A stretch of 33,324 bases of DNA from Clostridia bacterium. Lineage in GTDB: Bacteria; Bacillota; Clostridia; Oscillospirales; Acutalibacteraceae. Location of the stretch: assembly GCA_017435865.1 (NCBI GenBank), contig JAFSEF010000001.1, positions 1 through 33,324 on the forward strand, written 5' to 3'. The translations under genes were made by a program, and so were the position numbers. Below, piece by piece: positions 7,492-30,891 of the stretch; position 1 is the first letter of the stretch, and each line of letters begins with the position of its first letter. The notes under the pieces are model-generated. The model saw only the letters and a program-made list of their open reading frames with translations, had not been told where the DNA came from and made no database searches.

Positions 7492-7539
7492 AAGAGGCTG
7501 TTGCAAATCCGGTTCAGGAATTGCAACAGCCTCTTTTTT
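7492..7539 (+). terminator. Terminator hairpin of the GNAT operon; left hairpin flanking the RloAB module
   Basis: A perfect 15-bp stem, AAGAGGCTGTTGCAA (7492-7506) with TTGCAACAGCCTCTT (7521-7535), has a 14-nt loop and a T-run to 7539. A near copy in inverted orientation lies at 9605-9648. It may also stop rloB transcription coming from the right. Confidence 0.9.
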
Positions 7540-9594: not shown

Positions 9595-9650
9595 AGCAAA
9601 AAACAAGAGACTGTTGCAATTCCTGAACCGGATTTGAAACAGTCTCTTGT
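9595..9650 (-). terminator. folE operon terminator; right hairpin flanking the RloAB module
   Basis: Stem-loop 9603-9650, followed on the minus strand by a T-rich run (9595-9601). It differs from the inverted copy at 7492-7535 at only 3 of 44 positions. Two of the three form a compensatory G-C to A-T pair change, so the stem is preserved. It starts 4 nt after the folE stop codon. Confidence 0.85.
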
Positions 9651-24392: not shown

Positions 24393-24806
24393 ATGGCAAA
24401 AAGTGAAAATGCACATGTCAGCAACGAACGCAAAATGATTTTCCGCTATATTCGCGAAGTCAACAAAGAAATCATTGCCACGAACAAGCAAAAGCAAAAA
24501 TTGTTCGGCGATTTAATAAGTGACATTCACGAGCGTATTGCCGACGGCAAAATTGCAAGCTATGAGGACATTGTTGCACACTTCGGCACCCCTGCACGGG
24601 TAGCAAAGGACTTTTTTGCTTCGGCTGACATAAAAGAGATCAAGAAAAAGCTGTTGTTCAAACAAATCCTCTTTTTTGCCGTTGCATGTTGCCTGCTTAT
24701 TTTCATGGCATACCGTTTATTCATGATGAACGGAGCATTTGACAGTATTCACAATTTGTTGGGGCTGCATACAGAGGGATTTCTTCTGTTATCGCTACTG
24801 CAATAG
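24393..24806 (+). CDS. HAAS/DUF1700-like membrane protein, paralogue 1
   Basis: 137 residues from ATG 24393, with AGAGAGGGGG about 12 nt upstream. The soluble N-terminal part contains YIREVNKEIIATNKQKQKLF followed by IHERIADGKIASYEDIVAHFG and PARVAKDFF. This is the helical HAAS-type domain (DUF1700/DUF6120-like) that usually precedes a membrane segment; here one hydrophobic helix lies at about 92-110. HAAS proteins are typically encoded next to PadR regulators, and one is present downstream. Function is unknown; membrane sensing is suspected. It is a clear paralogue of the next gene. Confidence 0.75.
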   Translation: MAKSENAHVSNERKMIFRYIREVNKEIIATNKQKQKLFGDLISDIHERIADGKIASYEDIVAHFGTPARVAKDFFASADIKEIKKKLLFKQILFFAVACCLLIFMAYRLFMMNGAFDSIHNLLGLHTEGFLLLSLLQ

Positions 24807-24826
24807 AAAAAAGGGGCACACGAAAG

Positions 24827-25315
24827 ATGAAACCATCTGCTTATATTTCTGCAAAAGACGCGCAAAAAATGATCTCAGACTATGTCCGTACTGTCAAAAA
24901 AGAGATCATTGCAACACGCACACAAAGGCAACAGCTGTTTGATGATTTGAAAGCTGACATTCACGAGCGAATTGCAGACGGCAAAATTGCTGACTATGAC
25001 GATATCGTTGCTCATTTCGGCACACCCGAACAGGTTGCAAAGGATTTTTCCAACACTGCGGACATAAAAGAAGTCAAAAGACTGATTCTTCATCGCCATA
25101 TTCTCGTCACTGCCATCGTTTGTTGTGCTGCTACTTTCTTCGGTTACTATGAGTACAAGTTTTACGATGTCTACAACGCTTCGCACACCTATACAACAGA
25201 AACATTTGAGGTGGACGGACAAACCATTTACGAAGACATATTGGTTGAAGATCACCGTCATGGTGTCTCAGATATACTATCAAAAATATTCAACAGAAAG
25301 GATTCGGAACAATGA
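24827..25315 (+). CDS. HAAS/DUF1700-like membrane protein, paralogue 2
   Basis: 162 residues. The N-terminal 85 residues closely match the preceding protein (VKKEIIATRTQRQQLFDDL, IHERIADGKIADYDDIVAHFG, EQVAKDFSNTADIKEVK). One transmembrane helix lies at about 89-107. A tail of about 55 residues, likely outside the cell, differs from paralogue 1 and is rich in T, E and H. The ATG follows GGGG and a short AT-poor spacer. Its TGA overlaps the ATG of the secreted protein by 4 nt, so the two are translationally coupled. The pair looks like a tandem duplication with divergent C-termini. Confidence 0.78.
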   Translation: MKPSAYISAKDAQKMISDYVRTVKKEIIATRTQRQQLFDDLKADIHERIADGKIADYDDIVAHFGTPEQVAKDFSNTADIKEVKRLILHRHILVTAIVCCAATFFGYYEYKFYDVYNASHTYTTETFEVDGQTIYEDILVEDHRHGVSDILSKIFNRKDSEQ

Positions 25316-26198: not shown

Positions 26199-26331
26199 GC
26201 AAGAAAACGGCTTCGCCGTAACGCGGCGACCGTTTTCGATTCGTCCATCTCCGAGCACGTGAAGCGTGCGTTCGGAGGGACATACAATATTTTTTACTTT
26301 ATGGAAACGCAGTTTCCTATAAAGTAAAAAA
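26199..26331. repeat. 133-bp structured repeat, copy A
   Basis: Identical over all 133 bases to 30344-30476, in the same orientation. Three hairpins are visible. The first is GAAAACGG/CCGTTTTC with an inner CGCCG/CGGCG. The second is CCGA-CACG/CGTG-TCGG. The third is a near-palindrome of about 42 nt, TTTTTTACTTTA...TAAAGTAAAAAA with GGAAAC/GTTTCC inside. Its right end directly abuts the dltC terminator stem. No coding potential was seen. Confidence 0.9.
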
Positions 26332-26356
26332 GGAGCTGTCTGCACAGCTCCTTTTT
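26327..26356. terminator. Bidirectional terminator between padR and dltC
   Basis: A perfect 13-bp stem, AAAAAGGAGCTGT with ACAGCTCCTTTTT, and a 4-nt loop. T-runs are present on both strands within the stem ends. It serves the convergent padR (+) and vanW-dltA-dltC (-) operons. Confidence 0.85.
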
Positions 26357-26387
26357 CATATCATTTTTTATTCTTTTCCCGGAAAGC

Positions 26388-26606
26388 TCAGCTGTACATT
26401 TCAATCAGCTGTTCAATGCCTTCCACTGTGTGCAAAAGATTCTTATCAATGCGTGAAAGCGGAATTTCAATTCCCTCGTCTTCCAATGCAGAGAAAAGTT
26501 CAATAACACCCATGGAATCCAGCAAGCCTTCTTCAACAAGGTCGATACCGGGTTCGCTTACGCGGTCACTTTCGCATACTTCTGCAAGAACTTTTTTGAG
26601 ATCCAT
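26388..26606 (-). CDS. dltC: D-alanyl carrier protein-like acyl carrier protein
   Basis: 72 residues, the size of DltC. The phosphopantetheine site is GLLDSMGVIELF with Ser31. The N-terminal helix (LKKVLAEVCES) and C-terminal VEGIEQLIEMYS complete the four-helix carrier fold. It would hold the aminoacyl group made by the adjacent adenylating enzyme as a thioester. AAGGAG lies 9 nt before the ATG, and it follows the ligase gene by 23 nt. The usual export partners DltB and DltD are not in this operon. Confidence 0.82.
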   Translation of the reverse strand: MDLKKVLAEVCESDRVSEPGIDLVEEGLLDSMGVIELFSALEDEGIEIPLSRIDKNLLHTVEGIEQLIEMYS

Positions 26607-26629
26607 ACAAAATGGCTCCTTTCAAAATA

Positions 26630-27970
26630 TCAAAGTGCATTTTTGCCGTTGGCAGTCAGCTTGATCTCTGCAACGGTTTCAATCACTTTCGGAATCATAT
26701 ATTCGGGCACATACTTTGCCAGTTGCTCACGCAGATTTTCGCTGTCAAGGTCTTTGCCTGCCGCAATGGCTCTGATGTATTTTACATGACCTTCACTGTC
26801 CTTTTCAGCTACGACCTTACAGGTCTCAACGCCTTCAAAAGATGCAAGACGGTTCTGAATTTCGGACAGTTCAATGCGATAGCCGTTGAGTTTGATCTGA
26901 CTGTCCTTTCTGCCGCGGCAGAAAATAAGGCCGTCTTCGGTGATTTCACCAAGGTCACCCGTATAATAACGGTCTTCCACAAATCCGCCGATTTTGCCTG
27001 CAAGGTACCCCGGTGAAAGTGCATCACCGCGAAGCACGAGCTCGCCGTCTTCAATGAACACTTCAACCGAAGTCTCTCCAATTCTGCCGACGGGAAGATA
27101 CGGAAGTTCCAGTTCTTTTTCGGTAATTGCCACGGCACTGACCGCACAGGTGCATTCCGTAGGTCCGTATGCATTGAGCAATGTAATACCGGGGAAACGT
27201 TTCATAAGCTTCTGACAGGTCTTTTTCTCAAGCGGTTCGCCGCAGAAGAAAATACACTGCAGAGACGGAATATTGGCAGCTCTGAAATCCATATCGCACA
27301 TGGCAAGTTTTGCAAACGACGGGGTCATAACAGCCACATGAGGATCAAATCGTGCCGTTTCCGTTGTGATGTCGGCAAAACCGTCAGCACCTGTTGTTTC
27401 AAGGCAACCGCAGGTATGACCGAAGCACATGGAATAATACAGGTCGCATACACTCAGGTCGAACGAATACGATGCCTGATTCAATACGCGTACATTTTTA
27501 TAAGAATTCATGGGAGCCAGTGTATCCAGCCAACCGACAAAACATTTCAGATTTGCCTGGGTAATGCAGACTCCTTTCGGTGTTCCGGTGCTGCCGGAAG
27601 TAAAAATCATGTATGCAATGTCTGTGTCCTTCGCCGGAAAAACAGAAAGCGCCGGACCGGTCCAATCGGGTTCACAATCAATCACCGTGTCGGTTTTTGT
27701 TGCTTCCAGAATAAAATCCAGTCTGCGCTGCGGTATAAAAGTATCGCAGGGTACATAAGCCCTGCCAACCATAAGACAGGCAAGGAACACAACAGGCATA
27801 TAAGGCTCCTTGTGTCCGCGGACGACCACCGGCAAAGAACCGCCTGCAAGAGAGGCAGCAACACGAGAAGCTCTGTCCCAAAGCTGTCCAAACGTGAGCG
27901 AGCCGGAATGACTCGTAAAAAACAAATCATCCCGGTGCTCTAAACAGCATTTTTTAATCAGTTCAATCAT
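26630..27970 (-). CDS. dltA: DltA-like D-alanine (amino acid)-carrier protein ligase
   Basis: 446 residues from ATG 27970, which overlaps the vanW stop region by 8 nt. Adenylation motifs are in order: TSGSTGTPKG (A3, 124-133), NQASYSFDLSVCD (A4), NAYGPTECT (A5), YYTGDLG (A7), GRKDSQIKLNGYRIEL (A8) and terminal ANGK (A10 Lys). FFCGEPL matches the FCGE block holding the Cys typical of DltA substrate pockets, favouring D-alanine. It is somewhat shorter than typical DltA (about 500). With dltC it would charge a carrier protein for wall teichoic or lipoteichoic acid esterification. The absence of dltB and dltD nearby leaves the acceptor open. Confidence 0.82.
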   Translation of the reverse strand: MIELIKKCCLEHRDDLFFTSHSGSLTFGQLWDRASRVAASLAGGSLPVVVRGHKEPYMPVVFLACLMVGRAYVPCDTFIPQRRLDFILEATKTDTVIDCEPDWTGPALSVFPAKDTDIAYMIFTSGSTGTPKGVCITQANLKCFVGWLDTLAPMNSYKNVRVLNQASYSFDLSVCDLYYSMCFGHTCGCLETTGADGFADITTETARFDPHVAVMTPSFAKLAMCDMDFRAANIPSLQCIFFCGEPLEKKTCQKLMKRFPGITLLNAYGPTECTCAVSAVAITEKELELPYLPVGRIGETSVEVFIEDGELVLRGDALSPGYLAGKIGGFVEDRYYTGDLGEITEDGLIFCRGRKDSQIKLNGYRIELSEIQNRLASFEGVETCKVVAEKDSEGHVKYIRAIAAGKDLDSENLREQLAKYVPEYMIPKVIETVAEIKLTANGKNAL

Positions 27971-28793
27971 TGCGGATCTTTTCCGGCGGAATGAGGCTGT
28001 AATCGTAAAGAACCTTGGAATGGTTATCAAGGATCAGTTCCTTTTTCAGCGTTTCACCGGTCTCACGGTCAAGCGTGAGCTTATAAATCTGGCTGATACG
28101 ATAGAAAGTACCGTTTTCATTGCGGAAATGGTCGTTTTCTTCAATGATGCGGTATCTGTGTTCAAAAGCTTTTTCGCTGCGCAGTTCGCCGTTGAGATAT
28201 TCATCATCAAGCCATACAAGAATCTGCACGTCCTGATCGGTCGTGTTCTTGAAACGATAGTCAAGCTTGCTGTAGAATACGCTTGTACCTGTTCCGAAAG
28301 GAACCTTGCGGCGTTCATCGGGGAACAGAGCATCAGAATGGTGATGAAGCTCGGTCACTTCAAGGGGGCTGTGAAGTACAAGCCAATGCACCATGTTGGC
28401 AAGCTGGCAAAGACCGCCGCCGACACCGTTACCCATGGTCTGTCTTGCAGAGATGGTCAAACCGGGAAGATAGCCCTTCTTTTCGGTGGGGTTACCGACA
28501 AGATGCCAATAAGAGAAAGTTTCACCGGGATGAATCACAAGACCTGTGAACTTGGATGATGCGATTTTAAGATTCTGCACCTTATTCTGCTGCAGGGTGA
28601 GATCAACACCGTTCAGACGACGGATAAGAATAGAAGCATGGCTTTTGACGAGATTGTCCAGGGGTTCGGACTTGATCTCTTTCGCATATTTTTCGCCACT
28701 TACCAGATCTTTTGCAAATCTGATAACCCATTCTTTTTGCTGAGAAATTTTGTAAGTAAAGGGAGAAATTTCACAAAACAGTTTTCGTTCCAT
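27963..28793 (-). CDS. VanW family protein
   Basis: 276 residues from ATG 28793, with AAGGAG 12 nt upstream; a longer frame to 28883 would start inside the promoter and is rejected. The VanW block is clear: NLKIASSKFTGLVIHPGETFSYWHLVG..., then TISARQTMGNGVGGGLCQLANMVHWLVLHS and SVFYSKLDYRFKNTTDQDVQI. No signal peptide or membrane helix is evident, unlike many VanW proteins that carry an N-terminal anchor. VanW accompanies some vancomycin-resistance clusters, but its biochemical role is not established. Here it leads an operon with dltA- and dltC-like genes, suggesting a role in wall polymer modification. Confidence 0.85.
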   Translation of the reverse strand: MERKLFCEISPFTYKISQQKEWVIRFAKDLVSGEKYAKEIKSEPLDNLVKSHASILIRRLNGVDLTLQQNKVQNLKIASSKFTGLVIHPGETFSYWHLVGNPTEKKGYLPGLTISARQTMGNGVGGGLCQLANMVHWLVLHSPLEVTELHHHSDALFPDERRKVPFGTGTSVFYSKLDYRFKNTTDQDVQILVWLDDEYLNGELRSEKAFEHRYRIIEENDHFRNENGTFYRISQIYKLTLDRETGETLKKELILDNHSKVLYDYSLIPPEKIRND

Positions 28794-28873
28794 ATTTCTG
28801 CAACAACTCCTTTCGAAAACAAAAAAATGCAACAAATTATGTGGTTTATTCCTTACACCCATAATCACATTGC

Positions 28874-28902
28874 ATTTTATCATATACAGCCGTTTTTGTC
28901 AA
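28874..28902 (-). promoter_or_regulatory. Promoter of the vanW-dltA-dltC operon
   Basis: TTGACA (28902-28897), 17 bp, TAAAAT (28879-28874) on the minus strand. The leader is about 75 nt. Confidence 0.8.
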
Positions 28903-29191
28903 TAAAATTAAGGCAAAAAGCGACACAATATTCATTAAGTTTTATTAAGATTAAACACTTATCTATATCATCGTGCAATAATTTATAAAAAAATATTCTA
29001 TATCAACCCCCCGTCCCCCAATCTTGGGGGCGAAAAGGTGTTTTTTGTTATATGCAAACTGCTCACAATCGCGAGCAGTTTCCTATATAATAAAAAACAT
29101 CAACTGTATCAATTCTCTGTTTAGTCTGTTGAGCGACAAAAACAGACGATTCCCACACAACAGGTCACTTGCGTGAGCAAATTTTATGCAA
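28903..29191. other. Intergenic region with two strong hairpins
   Basis: No gene is visible. CCCCCAA/TTGGGGG lies at 29015-29030. A 59-nt near-palindrome spans 29040-29098, built of GTTTTTT, TTATAT and AAACTGCTC pairing with GAGCAGTTT, ATATAA and AAAAAAC. Its right arm, AGTTTCCTATA followed by A-rich sequence, resembles the third hairpin of the 133-bp repeat. Confidence 0.55.
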
Positions 29192-29222
29192 CAAAAAGCC
29201 CCACCGTACGAAAACGATGGGG
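29192..29222 (-). terminator. Terminator of rplU-prp-rpmA
   Basis: CCCCATCG and CGGTGGGG form an 8-bp stem (29199-29222) followed by a T-run (29197-29193) on the minus strand. It lies 15 nt after the rpmA stop. Confidence 0.85.
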
Positions 29223-29236
29223 TAATTTGCGTTGAC

Positions 29237-29515
29237 TTATGCCTCGTAGACGCTGACCTTTTTGCGGTCTTTGCCGTAACGCTCAAACTTGACTTTACCG
29301 TCGATAAGAGCATACAGAGTGTCATCGGAGCCGATGCCGACATTGTTGCCGGGATGGATATGCGTACCGCGCTGACGGACGAGGATGGTGCCTGCAAGAA
29401 CTGCCTGGCCATCGCTTCTCTTCGCGCCGAGTCTCTTGGATTCGGAATCACGACCGTTACGGGTGGAGCCCATTCCCTTTTTATGAGCAAAAAGCTGAAT
29501 GTTAACCTTAAGCAT
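29237..29515 (-). CDS. rpmA: 50S ribosomal protein L27 precursor
   Basis: 92 residues. The N-terminus [14 protein letters not shown] carries the nine-residue extension found in Firmicutes. Cleavage after F9 by Prp exposes the AHKKG end that reaches the peptidyl-transferase centre. The body [21 protein letters not shown] and [20 protein letters not shown] is standard L27. GGAGGT precedes the ATG. The protease gene prp is immediately upstream, so precursor and processing enzyme are co-transcribed. Confidence 0.98.
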
Positions 29516-29517
29516 TG

Positions 29518-29829
29518 TTATACCTCCGTAGTTATTTTGATAGCTTTCGGATACTGTTCGGCAAGCTGTTCCATATGCAAACGGAACCCTGCCAGAAGAT
29601 CCGAAGCACTGCTGTTTCCGTCGGAAACCATACAGTGCAGATAACCGTCTTCTACTTCAATTTCTGCCTGCACACCTATAATTTCAGTCAAGGTGTTGAC
29701 TGTCATATAAGCAGCCGAAGAAACTGCCGCACAGACGATGTCCGAACCTCTTGCAGCCGTACCGGAATGACCTTTGACGGTAAAACCGGTCAACTGTTGA
29801 TCATGAAGTCGGAAAACAGTGCAAATCAT
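29518..29829 (-). CDS. prp: Ribosomal-processing cysteine protease Prp
   Basis: 103 residues. The catalytic pair lies in the family motif GHSG...[10 protein letters not shown] (H21, C33). It removes the N-terminal extension of L27, encoded 2 nt downstream (YsxB/Prp family, studied in Staphylococcus). Its ATG overlaps the rplU stop by one base (TAATG), indicating translational coupling. Confidence 0.94.
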
Positions 29830-30140
29830 TATGCGTTGATTGCAGTGATTTCAATCTTGGTGTAGGGCTGTCTGTGGCCAAGCTTTCTCTTTTCGTTCTT
29901 CTTGGGCTTGTAGGTCATAACGGTAACTTTCTTCTGTTTGCCGTTCTTGATAGCCTTTGCAGCTACGGTTGCACCTTCAACATAGGGAGCACCGACCTTG
30001 ATACCGTCCTCAGAACCAACAGCAATAACCTTTTCAAAAGTGATTGCTTCTTCAGCCTCAACGTTAAGCTTTTCGATGTAGACGATATCGCCTGCTTCGA
30101 CCTTATACTGCTTACCGCCGGTTTCAATAATTGCGTACAT
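29829..30140 (-). CDS. rplU: 50S ribosomal protein L21
   Basis: 103 residues from [18 protein letters not shown], the canonical L21 start; the longer open frame to 30188 is leader sequence. [20 protein letters not shown] is the conserved C-terminal rRNA-binding block. AAAGGAG lies 9 nt before the ATG. First gene of rplU-prp-rpmA, the order normal in Firmicutes. Confidence 0.98.
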
Positions 30141-30228
30141 GCTTTTTTCTCCTTTACAAGACTCGCTACGGCAGGCGGGAAAATCCACTTGTGTACTCTT
30201 GACAGAATACGCCCTTGATATGCGGCGT
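30141..30228 (-). promoter_or_regulatory. rplU 5' leader, possible L21-type autoregulatory leader
   Basis: A leader of about 88 nt between the promoter and the rplU ATG. It can form an ACGCC/GGCGT hairpin (30209-30228) and an ACAAG/CTTGT-closed structure nearer the ribosome binding site. L21 leaders are known in Firmicutes; membership is not proven here. Confidence 0.4.
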
Positions 30229-30233
30229 GTAGA

Positions 30234-30262
30234 ATTTTATCATATTGACCGCCGATTGTCAA
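30234..30262 (-). promoter_or_regulatory. Promoter of rplU-prp-rpmA
   Basis: TTGACA (30262-30257), 17 bp, TAAAAT (30239-30234) on the minus strand. Confidence 0.85.
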
Positions 30263-30343
30263 TACTATTTTTCTTTTTTTCCGGATTATTTTTTCAACAC
30301 CGGAATCACAGCATTCTTTCAGTGGATGATCATTTCAGGATAA

Positions 30344-30476
30344 GCAAGAAAACGGCTTCGCCGTAACGCGGCGACCGTTTTCGATTCGTCCATCTCCGAG
30401 CACGTGAAGCGTGCGTTCGGAGGGACATACAATATTTTTTACTTTATGGAAACGCAGTTTCCTATAAAGTAAAAAA
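30344..30476. repeat. 133-bp structured repeat, copy B
   Basis: Base-for-base identical to copy A at 26199-26331 and in the same orientation. It lies between the rplU promoter and the first 5S gene. As with copy A, its right end is the A-run adjoining a terminator stem of a minus-strand gene. Confidence 0.9.
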
Positions 30477-30494
30477 CCACCCTGATGGGTGGTT
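30471..30494 (-). terminator. Terminator of 5S rRNA copy 1
   Basis: AAACCACCC and GGGTGGTTT form a 9-bp stem with a 3-nt loop, followed by Ts on the minus strand that belong to the end of repeat copy B. Confidence 0.85.
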
Positions 30495-30502
30495 TCGTTT
30501 GT

Positions 30503-30618
30503 GTCGGCGACGACCTATTTTCCCGGGCAGCTTCCCGCCAAGTATTTTCGGCACGATTGAGCTTAACTACCGTGTTCGGGATGGGAACGGGTGGAACCTC
30601 AATGTTATAGACACCGAC
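30503..30618 (-). rRNA. rrf: 5S ribosomal RNA, copy 1
   Basis: 116 nt on the minus strand. The ends pair as helix I (GTCGGTG with CGCCGAC). The conserved core CCCATCCCGAACACGG is present, followed by GTTAAGC and a GGGAAAATAGGTCG end. It has its own promoter and terminator. No 16S or 23S gene is nearby. It differs from copy 2 at one base (G versus A on the plus strand, about 30554). Confidence 0.96.
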
Positions 30619-30859: not shown

Positions 30860-30884
30860 AAAAAACCACCCTGATGGGTGGTTT
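30860..30884 (-). terminator. Terminator of 5S rRNA copy 2
   Basis: The same AAACCACCC/GGGTGGTTT stem as after copy 1, with T-run on the minus strand. Confidence 0.85.
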
Positions 30885-30891
30885 CATTTGT

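Follow-up and report, generated by a model that had tools for sequence, protein, structure and literature searches.

The EFAR elements of Enterococcus faecalis are miniature insertion sequences of palindromic structure; their empty sites are stem-loops unrelated in sequence, and the target stem-loop is mostly deleted. Group IIC introns are ribozymes with a reverse transcriptase. Here we examine a 133-base repeat that occurs twice in a 33,324-nucleotide stretch of DNA (hereafter the window) from a Clostridia bacterium of the family Acutalibacteraceae (GCA_017435865.1, contig JAFSEF010000001.1, positions 1 to 33,324 of the forward strand). In our view the repeat is likely to be a miniature mobile element, about 125 nucleotides (nt) long, that is non-autonomous and targets terminators; it is much shorter than a group IIC intron. 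Going by general description alone, EFAR is the closest known system; unlike EFAR, the window element keeps its target stem-loop. We found no paper in the open-access literature that names the element.

Other described repeats resemble it in part. The available portions of two reports present SPRITE, RUP and BOX of Streptococcus pneumoniae as small structured intergenic repeats that are commoner between convergent genes (PMC3049150) and that are found inserted in one another (PMC10969869). In these same portions SPRITE is terminator-like and has no matching insertion sequence (IS), and RUP and BOX carry terminal inverted repeats like those of an IS (PMC3049150, PMC10969869). As far as those portions describe them, the window element is like these repeats in being small, structured, intergenic and nested, but it goes behind terminators that already exist. 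A report on group IIC introns, available in part, places their insertion sites behind a stem-loop, for example a Rho-independent terminator, and describes a short pairing to intron-binding site 1 (IBS1) (PMC7923331); the terminator stem-loop target is common to the window element, whereas the ribozyme fold is not matched in it. For IS200/IS605 elements, and for repetitive extragenic palindromes (REPs) with their RAYT transposases, an extract of a further source gives palindromic ends, strand-specific insertion and a site chosen through internal guide pairing (PMC8266576).

Copies of the repeat and their position at terminators

The assembly that holds the window (3.1 Mb, 133 contigs, 85% complete) contains about 30 dispersed copies of the element, located as 30 places by a DNA search and as 31 matches to a covariance model. 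One of the 30 places is only 43 bases long, at a contig end, and another has a divergent left end. This genome-wide count, a check that the initial annotation of the window had proposed, bears directly on the possibility that local duplication, or recombination, links the two copies in the window. Their identity would fit such an origin, and the annotation had named a longer duplicated segment holding the only two copies as the outcome that would undo its reading; some 30 dispersed copies with differing flanks refute this explanation, to which we give practically no weight. The perfect identity that the annotation had remarked on is real but not special to the window pair, as 12 of the 30 places reach at least 99% in the search tool's rounded figures.

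Matches at the DNA level were found in 11 of 98 genomes, every one within the genus. The covariance model, built from 28 hand-chosen copies, returned at least 285 matches (E 1e-3 or better) in 19 of the 26 genus genomes and none in the 72 genomes of other relatives; the total is a lower bound owing to strict search filters, and three genomes stand at 34 or more each. Within this one genus the number of matches per genome thus runs from 0 to at least 34. Plasmids gave no match to the element. Viral contigs also gave none when searched with a pattern suited to the hairpin of the wider Clostridia set and not to the window copies. Element matches did appear in 3 unannotated faecal records labelled phage, which are among 14 phage-labelled faecal records with matches to a Lachnospiraceae-type element. 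The 3 that were inspected are titled UNVERIFIED and may be bacterial contigs.

To describe the flanks we sampled 119 distinct copies out of the 285 or more (29 loci of the own genome, others that the searches returned and 60 hand-picked regions), and scored a stem-loop where at least 6 pairs began a few bases at most from the end of the A-tract. At the poly-A (right) end a stem-loop was present in 90 of the 118 copies with enough flank, as against 10 of 116 outward of the left end, 16 of 288 at control offsets 70, 110 and 150 bases further out, and 18 of 354 shuffled flanks. The loop limit had been relaxed after a first version of the test, in which loops of up to 10 bases were allowed and the counts were 77/122 for the right end, 10/119 for the left end and 10/299 for control positions. 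Insertion at terminators, which the annotation had asked to be tested for every copy, is a strong association and not a rule without exception. One member of the window element's family (L047) and a related element from a phage-labelled record (L080) lie directly behind T-box leaders, with T-box scores of 89.3 and 78.4 where the Rfam cut-off is 93, so it is apparently the terminator, and not the end of the gene, that is targeted.

The two window copies conform to their description in the annotation: two identical intergenic 133-base repeats in one orientation, three hairpins in a row, and right ends at minus-strand terminators. BLAST aligned 26199–26331 with 30344–30476 at 100% identity over 133 positions in shared orientation, the bases flanking the repeats differ between the sites on left and right, and folding on either strand gives the three hairpins. 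Copy 1 lies between a PadR-like gene (end 26184) and a minus-strand dltC-like gene for a 72-amino-acid phosphopantetheine carrier protein (PF00550), whose terminator adjoins its right end. Copy 2 lies between the minus-strand terminator of 5S rRNA copy 1, again adjoining the right end, and a promoter-like site before rplU. The features of both copies are as follows, with the strand given where one is assigned.

26200–26324, minus strand: mobile unit of copy 1, 125 nt, reading CTTTATAGG...CTTG on the minus strand and the same as copy 2; ends placed from tandem copies and reciprocal empty sites
26203–26237: hairpin 1 of copy 1, at the CTTG end, followed on the minus strand by TTTTCTTG and itself terminator-like; from the fold and a terminator scan (26219–26207, minus strand)
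26243–26281: hairpin 2 of copy 1; from the fold, with changes on both sides in 5 of 8 pairs
26283–26288, plus strand: conserved unpaired TANAAT motif between hairpins 2 and 3; from column conservation in alignments
26290–26331: hairpin 3 of copy 1, read as a composite of an element arm and the host T-tract of the minus-strand terminator (26326–26331); from the fold, double-changed pairs, tandem joints and outer-tract variability
26332–26351, minus strand: terminator stem of the dltC-like gene, the target of copy 1; from a terminator scan (listed on the plus strand at 26327–26356) and the minus-strand fold
30345–30469, minus strand: mobile unit of copy 2; from identity to copy 1
30348–30382: hairpin 1 of copy 2; identical sequence, terminator-like at 30364–30352 (minus strand)
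30388–30426: hairpin 2 of copy 2; identical sequence and fold
30435–30476: hairpin 3 of copy 2, including the 5S terminator T-tract at 30471–30476; from the fold
30473–30496, minus strand: terminator of 5S rRNA copy 1, the target of copy 2; from a terminator scan, with the 5S gene at 30502–30618 (minus strand)
30862–30885, minus strand: terminator of 5S rRNA copy 2, a paralogous site that has its own T6 and no element; from a terminator scan

Unit ends, tandem arrays and empty sites

Comparison of sequences at tandem and empty sites defines a putative mobile unit of about 125 nt, running from CTTTATAGG to CTTG on the minus strand and placed behind a stem-loop and T-tract with no clear duplication of the target. 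Of four tandem arrays, three (L311, L312 and L313) have a second unit that opens with CTTTACAGG, CTTTATAGG or TTTGATAGG right after the CTTG of the first, with no T6 in between, and in single copies the same unit start comes after the T-tract of the terminator. In an orthologous intergenic region of genomes G000 and G001 there are separate insertions at different points, so that each genome supplies the empty site of the other. With the unit removed, the G001 site shows a 4-base gap and its T-tract runs into the shared flank, and the G000 site retains eight extra bases, mostly T. Neither a long deletion nor a clear target duplication is seen at this one reciprocal pair. At the rplU and L027 loci synteny was too low to give exact empty sites, and at L022 and L006 the flank homology ended before the terminator; the G001 counterpart of L006 carries an element in the opposite orientation.

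These comparisons also bear on the 42-nt near-palindrome at the right end, which the annotation had described as beginning with TTTTTT and ending with AAAAAA. The palindrome stands, but the A6 at its right end is mainly host terminator sequence and not part of the element. Element-free terminators with a T6–T7 of their own are present at 5S rRNA copy 2 in the window and at a paralogue in L013, and also at two G014 loci (L262 and L273) that are comparable on the terminator side only. Across 122 aligned rows, 16 vary in the outer tract with the inner T kept, and 6 vary in the inner tract. Given the tandem joints, the empty sites and this variability of the outer tract, we take the outer tract of the palindrome to be mostly host sequence, with some contribution from the element possible.

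Several observations weigh against a mobile unit that homes on terminators and leaves their T-tracts to the host. The stem criterion failed in 28 of the 118 copies, several of which keep the terminal A6 (T6 on the minus strand); by eye, some of the 28 hold imperfect hairpins and others none. The fourth tandem array, L314, looks like a duplication in which the stem before it was copied as well, and not like simple stacking. In 3 of the 6 inner-tract variants the outer tract matches the inner one, which would also fit a T-tract owned by the element, and because of the 4-base gap and the eight extra T-rich bases, the element may bring some of the T-tract with it. A short target duplication at the G000/G001 pair is likewise possible, and the exact two-sided comparison of empty sites amounts to this one locus pair. 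Movement is deduced here from comparing sequences, and no autonomous partner was found, nor a transposase among the families searched.

Structure, mechanism and candidate mobilisers

The fold of the element is more stable than expected by chance (z = -8.3 on the plus strand and -7.9 on the minus strand, with none of 200 shuffles equally stable). In an alignment of 28 sequences 97.9% of paired cells hold a pair, and covariation across copies, another check that the annotation had put forward, was found: both sides carry changes in 14 of the 26 pairs, and the observed values were not reached in any of 500 shuffles. The double-changed pairs fall 1/5 in hairpin 1, of which only the short inner 5-pair part of the consensus helix was tested, 5/8 in hairpin 2 and 8/13 in hairpin 3. 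A control with slid partners gave 0 to 2 double-changed pairs; on the share of cells paired this control favours the structure, because the structure was derived from the same alignment. Between hairpins 2 and 3, the columns of the TANAAT motif are nearly fixed (columns 85, 87, 88 and 89 carry the same base in 121, 119, 121 and 117 of 122 rows, with column 86 variable), and T84 is invariant in the 28-sequence alignment.

Strong covariation and a highly conserved unpaired motif that resembles a -10 box are what a dispersed functional RNA, or a regulatory terminator cassette with a role in the host, might display in place of a mobile parasite. We hold this very unlikely. The number of matches swings from none to 34 or more among genomes of a single genus, insertions occurred independently at different points in one intergenic region, and units are stacked on one another. 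In addition, no -35-like hexamer was seen by eye near TANAAT, and a promoter scan made no call inside either window copy. The dispersed structured RNA that the annotation had offered as its second proposal is not needed to account for the repeat, and a mobile element would account for a dispersed repeat that, in Clostridia genomes, is easily taken for a structured RNA.

The annotation's first proposal, an element like a miniature inverted-repeat transposable element (MITE) that targets terminator T-tracts, fares better: dispersed copies, terminator association, empty sites and stacked units agree with it, but the traits of a classical MITE are incomplete. The element is small (a 125-nt unit), multi-copy (at least 285 model matches in the genus) and non-coding, and its ends, CTTTATAGG and CTTG, are not inverted repeats. 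Where REPs carry GTAG before the palindrome the element has CAAG, and the RAYT-like gene found has other REPs at its flanks. Like group IIC introns, the element lies behind terminator stem-loops (90/118 copies), and neither a domain V ribozyme fold nor an intron-encoded protein was matched in a unit of only 125 nt. Because it departs from MITEs, REPs, IS200/IS605 elements and group IIC introns in at least one defining trait of each, we place the element among small non-autonomous mobile repeats.

On the strand that has the target 5', the proposed order is host stem-loop, host T-tract, CTTTATAGG (hairpin 3), A6, ATTNTA, hairpin 2, hairpin 1 and CTTG. An enzyme acting in trans would recognise the end hairpins and move the unit, probably in the form of single-stranded nucleic acid. 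Its internal A-tract would choose the site by pairing with the target T-tract, and target and element would then close the 42-nt palindrome. Harm to the host is predicted to be low, as insertion leaves the terminator whole and the unit closes with its own terminator-like hairpin. A terminator scan scored hairpin 1 with TTTTCTTG as terminator-like, and it acts as the target in the tandem arrays; in this way each unit could provide a target for the next. Intrinsic terminators are very abundant landmarks and can tolerate insertion on their downstream side, and a stem-loop with a T-tract as target would offer a safe harbour behind many genes with termination left intact. The architecture predicts the internal A-tract to be a guide and hairpin 1 the next target, and the mobiliser, once identified, could show a new way to address DNA. 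As to chemistry, single-strand (HUH-type) transposition and some other process are both plausible, neither reaching even odds, and a reverse-transcription route is unlikely.

The searches turned up no mobilising enzyme: the distribution of Y1_Tnp, RVT_1 and IS110 genes does not track copy number, and other transposase families were not searched. The annotation's suggestion of a transposase with matching ends accordingly found no candidate in these three families. This bears on the idea that the element is an IS200/IS605-type derivative or a REP-like unit, with a Y1 HUH transposase (TnpA or a domesticated RAYT) moving it in single-stranded DNA form, which we regard as possible but doubtful. The hairpins at both ends, the strand-specific target, the lack of a clear target duplication at the one locus pair and the end TTTTCTTG, which resembles the target T-tract, all agree with it. 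So do four of the five IS200-type genes of the genus that were viewed (L062, L063, L064 and L076, with L061 unclear), which by eye seem to lie behind stem-loops with T-rich tracts. Yet Y1_Tnp gave no match at E 1e-3 in five genomes with at least 16 copies each (G001, G010, G015, G019 and G023, drafts 78–95% complete), and the only Y1-like gene found in the own genome, considered as a RAYT mobiliser, was rejected as it has GTAG REPs of its own. Guides of IS200/IS605 elements lie 5' of each end palindrome in the available part of the source (PMC8266576), whereas the A-tract lies 3' of hairpin 3 with the target 5'. A palindrome like hairpin 3 was found at none of 45 Y1 or reverse transcriptase loci, with a scan that recovers hairpin 3 in only 6 of 12 loci known to have it.

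A reverse transcriptase could instead join the RNA or cDNA of the unit to terminator sites, in the manner of group IIC introns, which go behind terminators; we think this quite unlikely. The type of target is shared, a stem-loop upstream of the short intron-paired IBS1 in the accessible part of the report (PMC7923331), and the insertion point coincides with the expected 3' end of terminated RNAs. Against this, no group II intron match was found in the window, nor in 11 chosen loci up to E 5, and RVT_1 gave none at E 1e-3 in G001, G006, G015, G022 and G023, which hold 16 to at least 34 copies (drafts, 74–96% complete).

Partial and split matches were inspected as candidates for an autonomous form of the terminator-targeting element, and none qualified. 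L321 combines a solo hairpin 3 with a degraded copy some 5.5 kb away, and a 1,744-amino-acid reading frame lies between the two; L413 is cut by a contig end; in L414–L418 hairpin 3 is absent, shortened or degraded; L419 is only a hairpin-3 arm and L420 only hairpin 1. By eye the relics L414, L416, L417 and L418 still stand behind terminator-like stems. L322 (G021:C23, 190.5–191.5 kb) was set aside as a copy interrupted by another element: it is a copy of the window family split in hairpin 3 by an element of about 270 bp with long inverted repeats starting TAGGGTGACGGATATAATCCGAACCC.

Related families and neighbouring repeats

A hairpin-3 pattern, which does not fit the window copies themselves, was used to search for relatives and returned at least 100 stretches, whose titles name Clostridia or its families or genera except for one named Lactobacillus rogosae. 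These form clusters with different middles, and the genus of the window is among the members. Across six clusters a right-end stem was present in 66/90, compared with 14/264 control positions; for hairpin-3 elements other than full-length members of the window family, the figures were 46/65 and 9/189. The small clusters are weak, with stems in 1/3, 1/2 and 0/2. Elements sharing the end hairpin occur patchily in other Clostridia; they are like the window element in the end hairpin and the position behind stem-loops, and unlike it in their middles and other ends. No name for them was found in the literature searched.

In the own genome the start motif TTTTNNYTWTAYAGGAAA has 31 occurrences and its reversed control has 1; the motif exposes a second family. 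Combined with the arm, the motif was found in 2 of 117 other genomes across the class, one probably by chance. For the second family the stem-loop association gave no clear signal (3/13 vs 4/39). It is tempting, though doubtful, to unite the window family, the second family and the hairpin-3 elements of other Clostridia in one class of terminator-homing mini-elements, which would share site choice by A-tract and T-tract, a decoy terminator and an undescribed single-strand or RNA-based machinery.

A member of the second family lies in the window at 28990–29101, with the start TTATATAGGAAA, a palindrome with paired T6 and A6, and the hairpin CCCCCAAGATTGGGGG. By eye this family is also stacked behind hairpin 1 of the first in L046 and L321. 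At L336 (G000:C11, about 3365) a second-family start is broken after its first arm, right before a reading frame, which may mark the joint of another mobile element.

A RAYT-like Y1 gene below the Pfam cut-off, at L060 (G000:C115, 1–1130), is flanked by many GTAGGGAACGCAT...ATGCGTTCC REPs in a REPtron-like arrangement. Elsewhere in the window, a 48-nt inverted repeat (7492–7539 and 9601–9648, 92% complementary, 2 kb apart) surrounds two minus-strand reading frames, and two 212-nt direct repeats that are 74% alike occupy adjacent reading frames at 24432–25077, upstream of the PadR-like gene.

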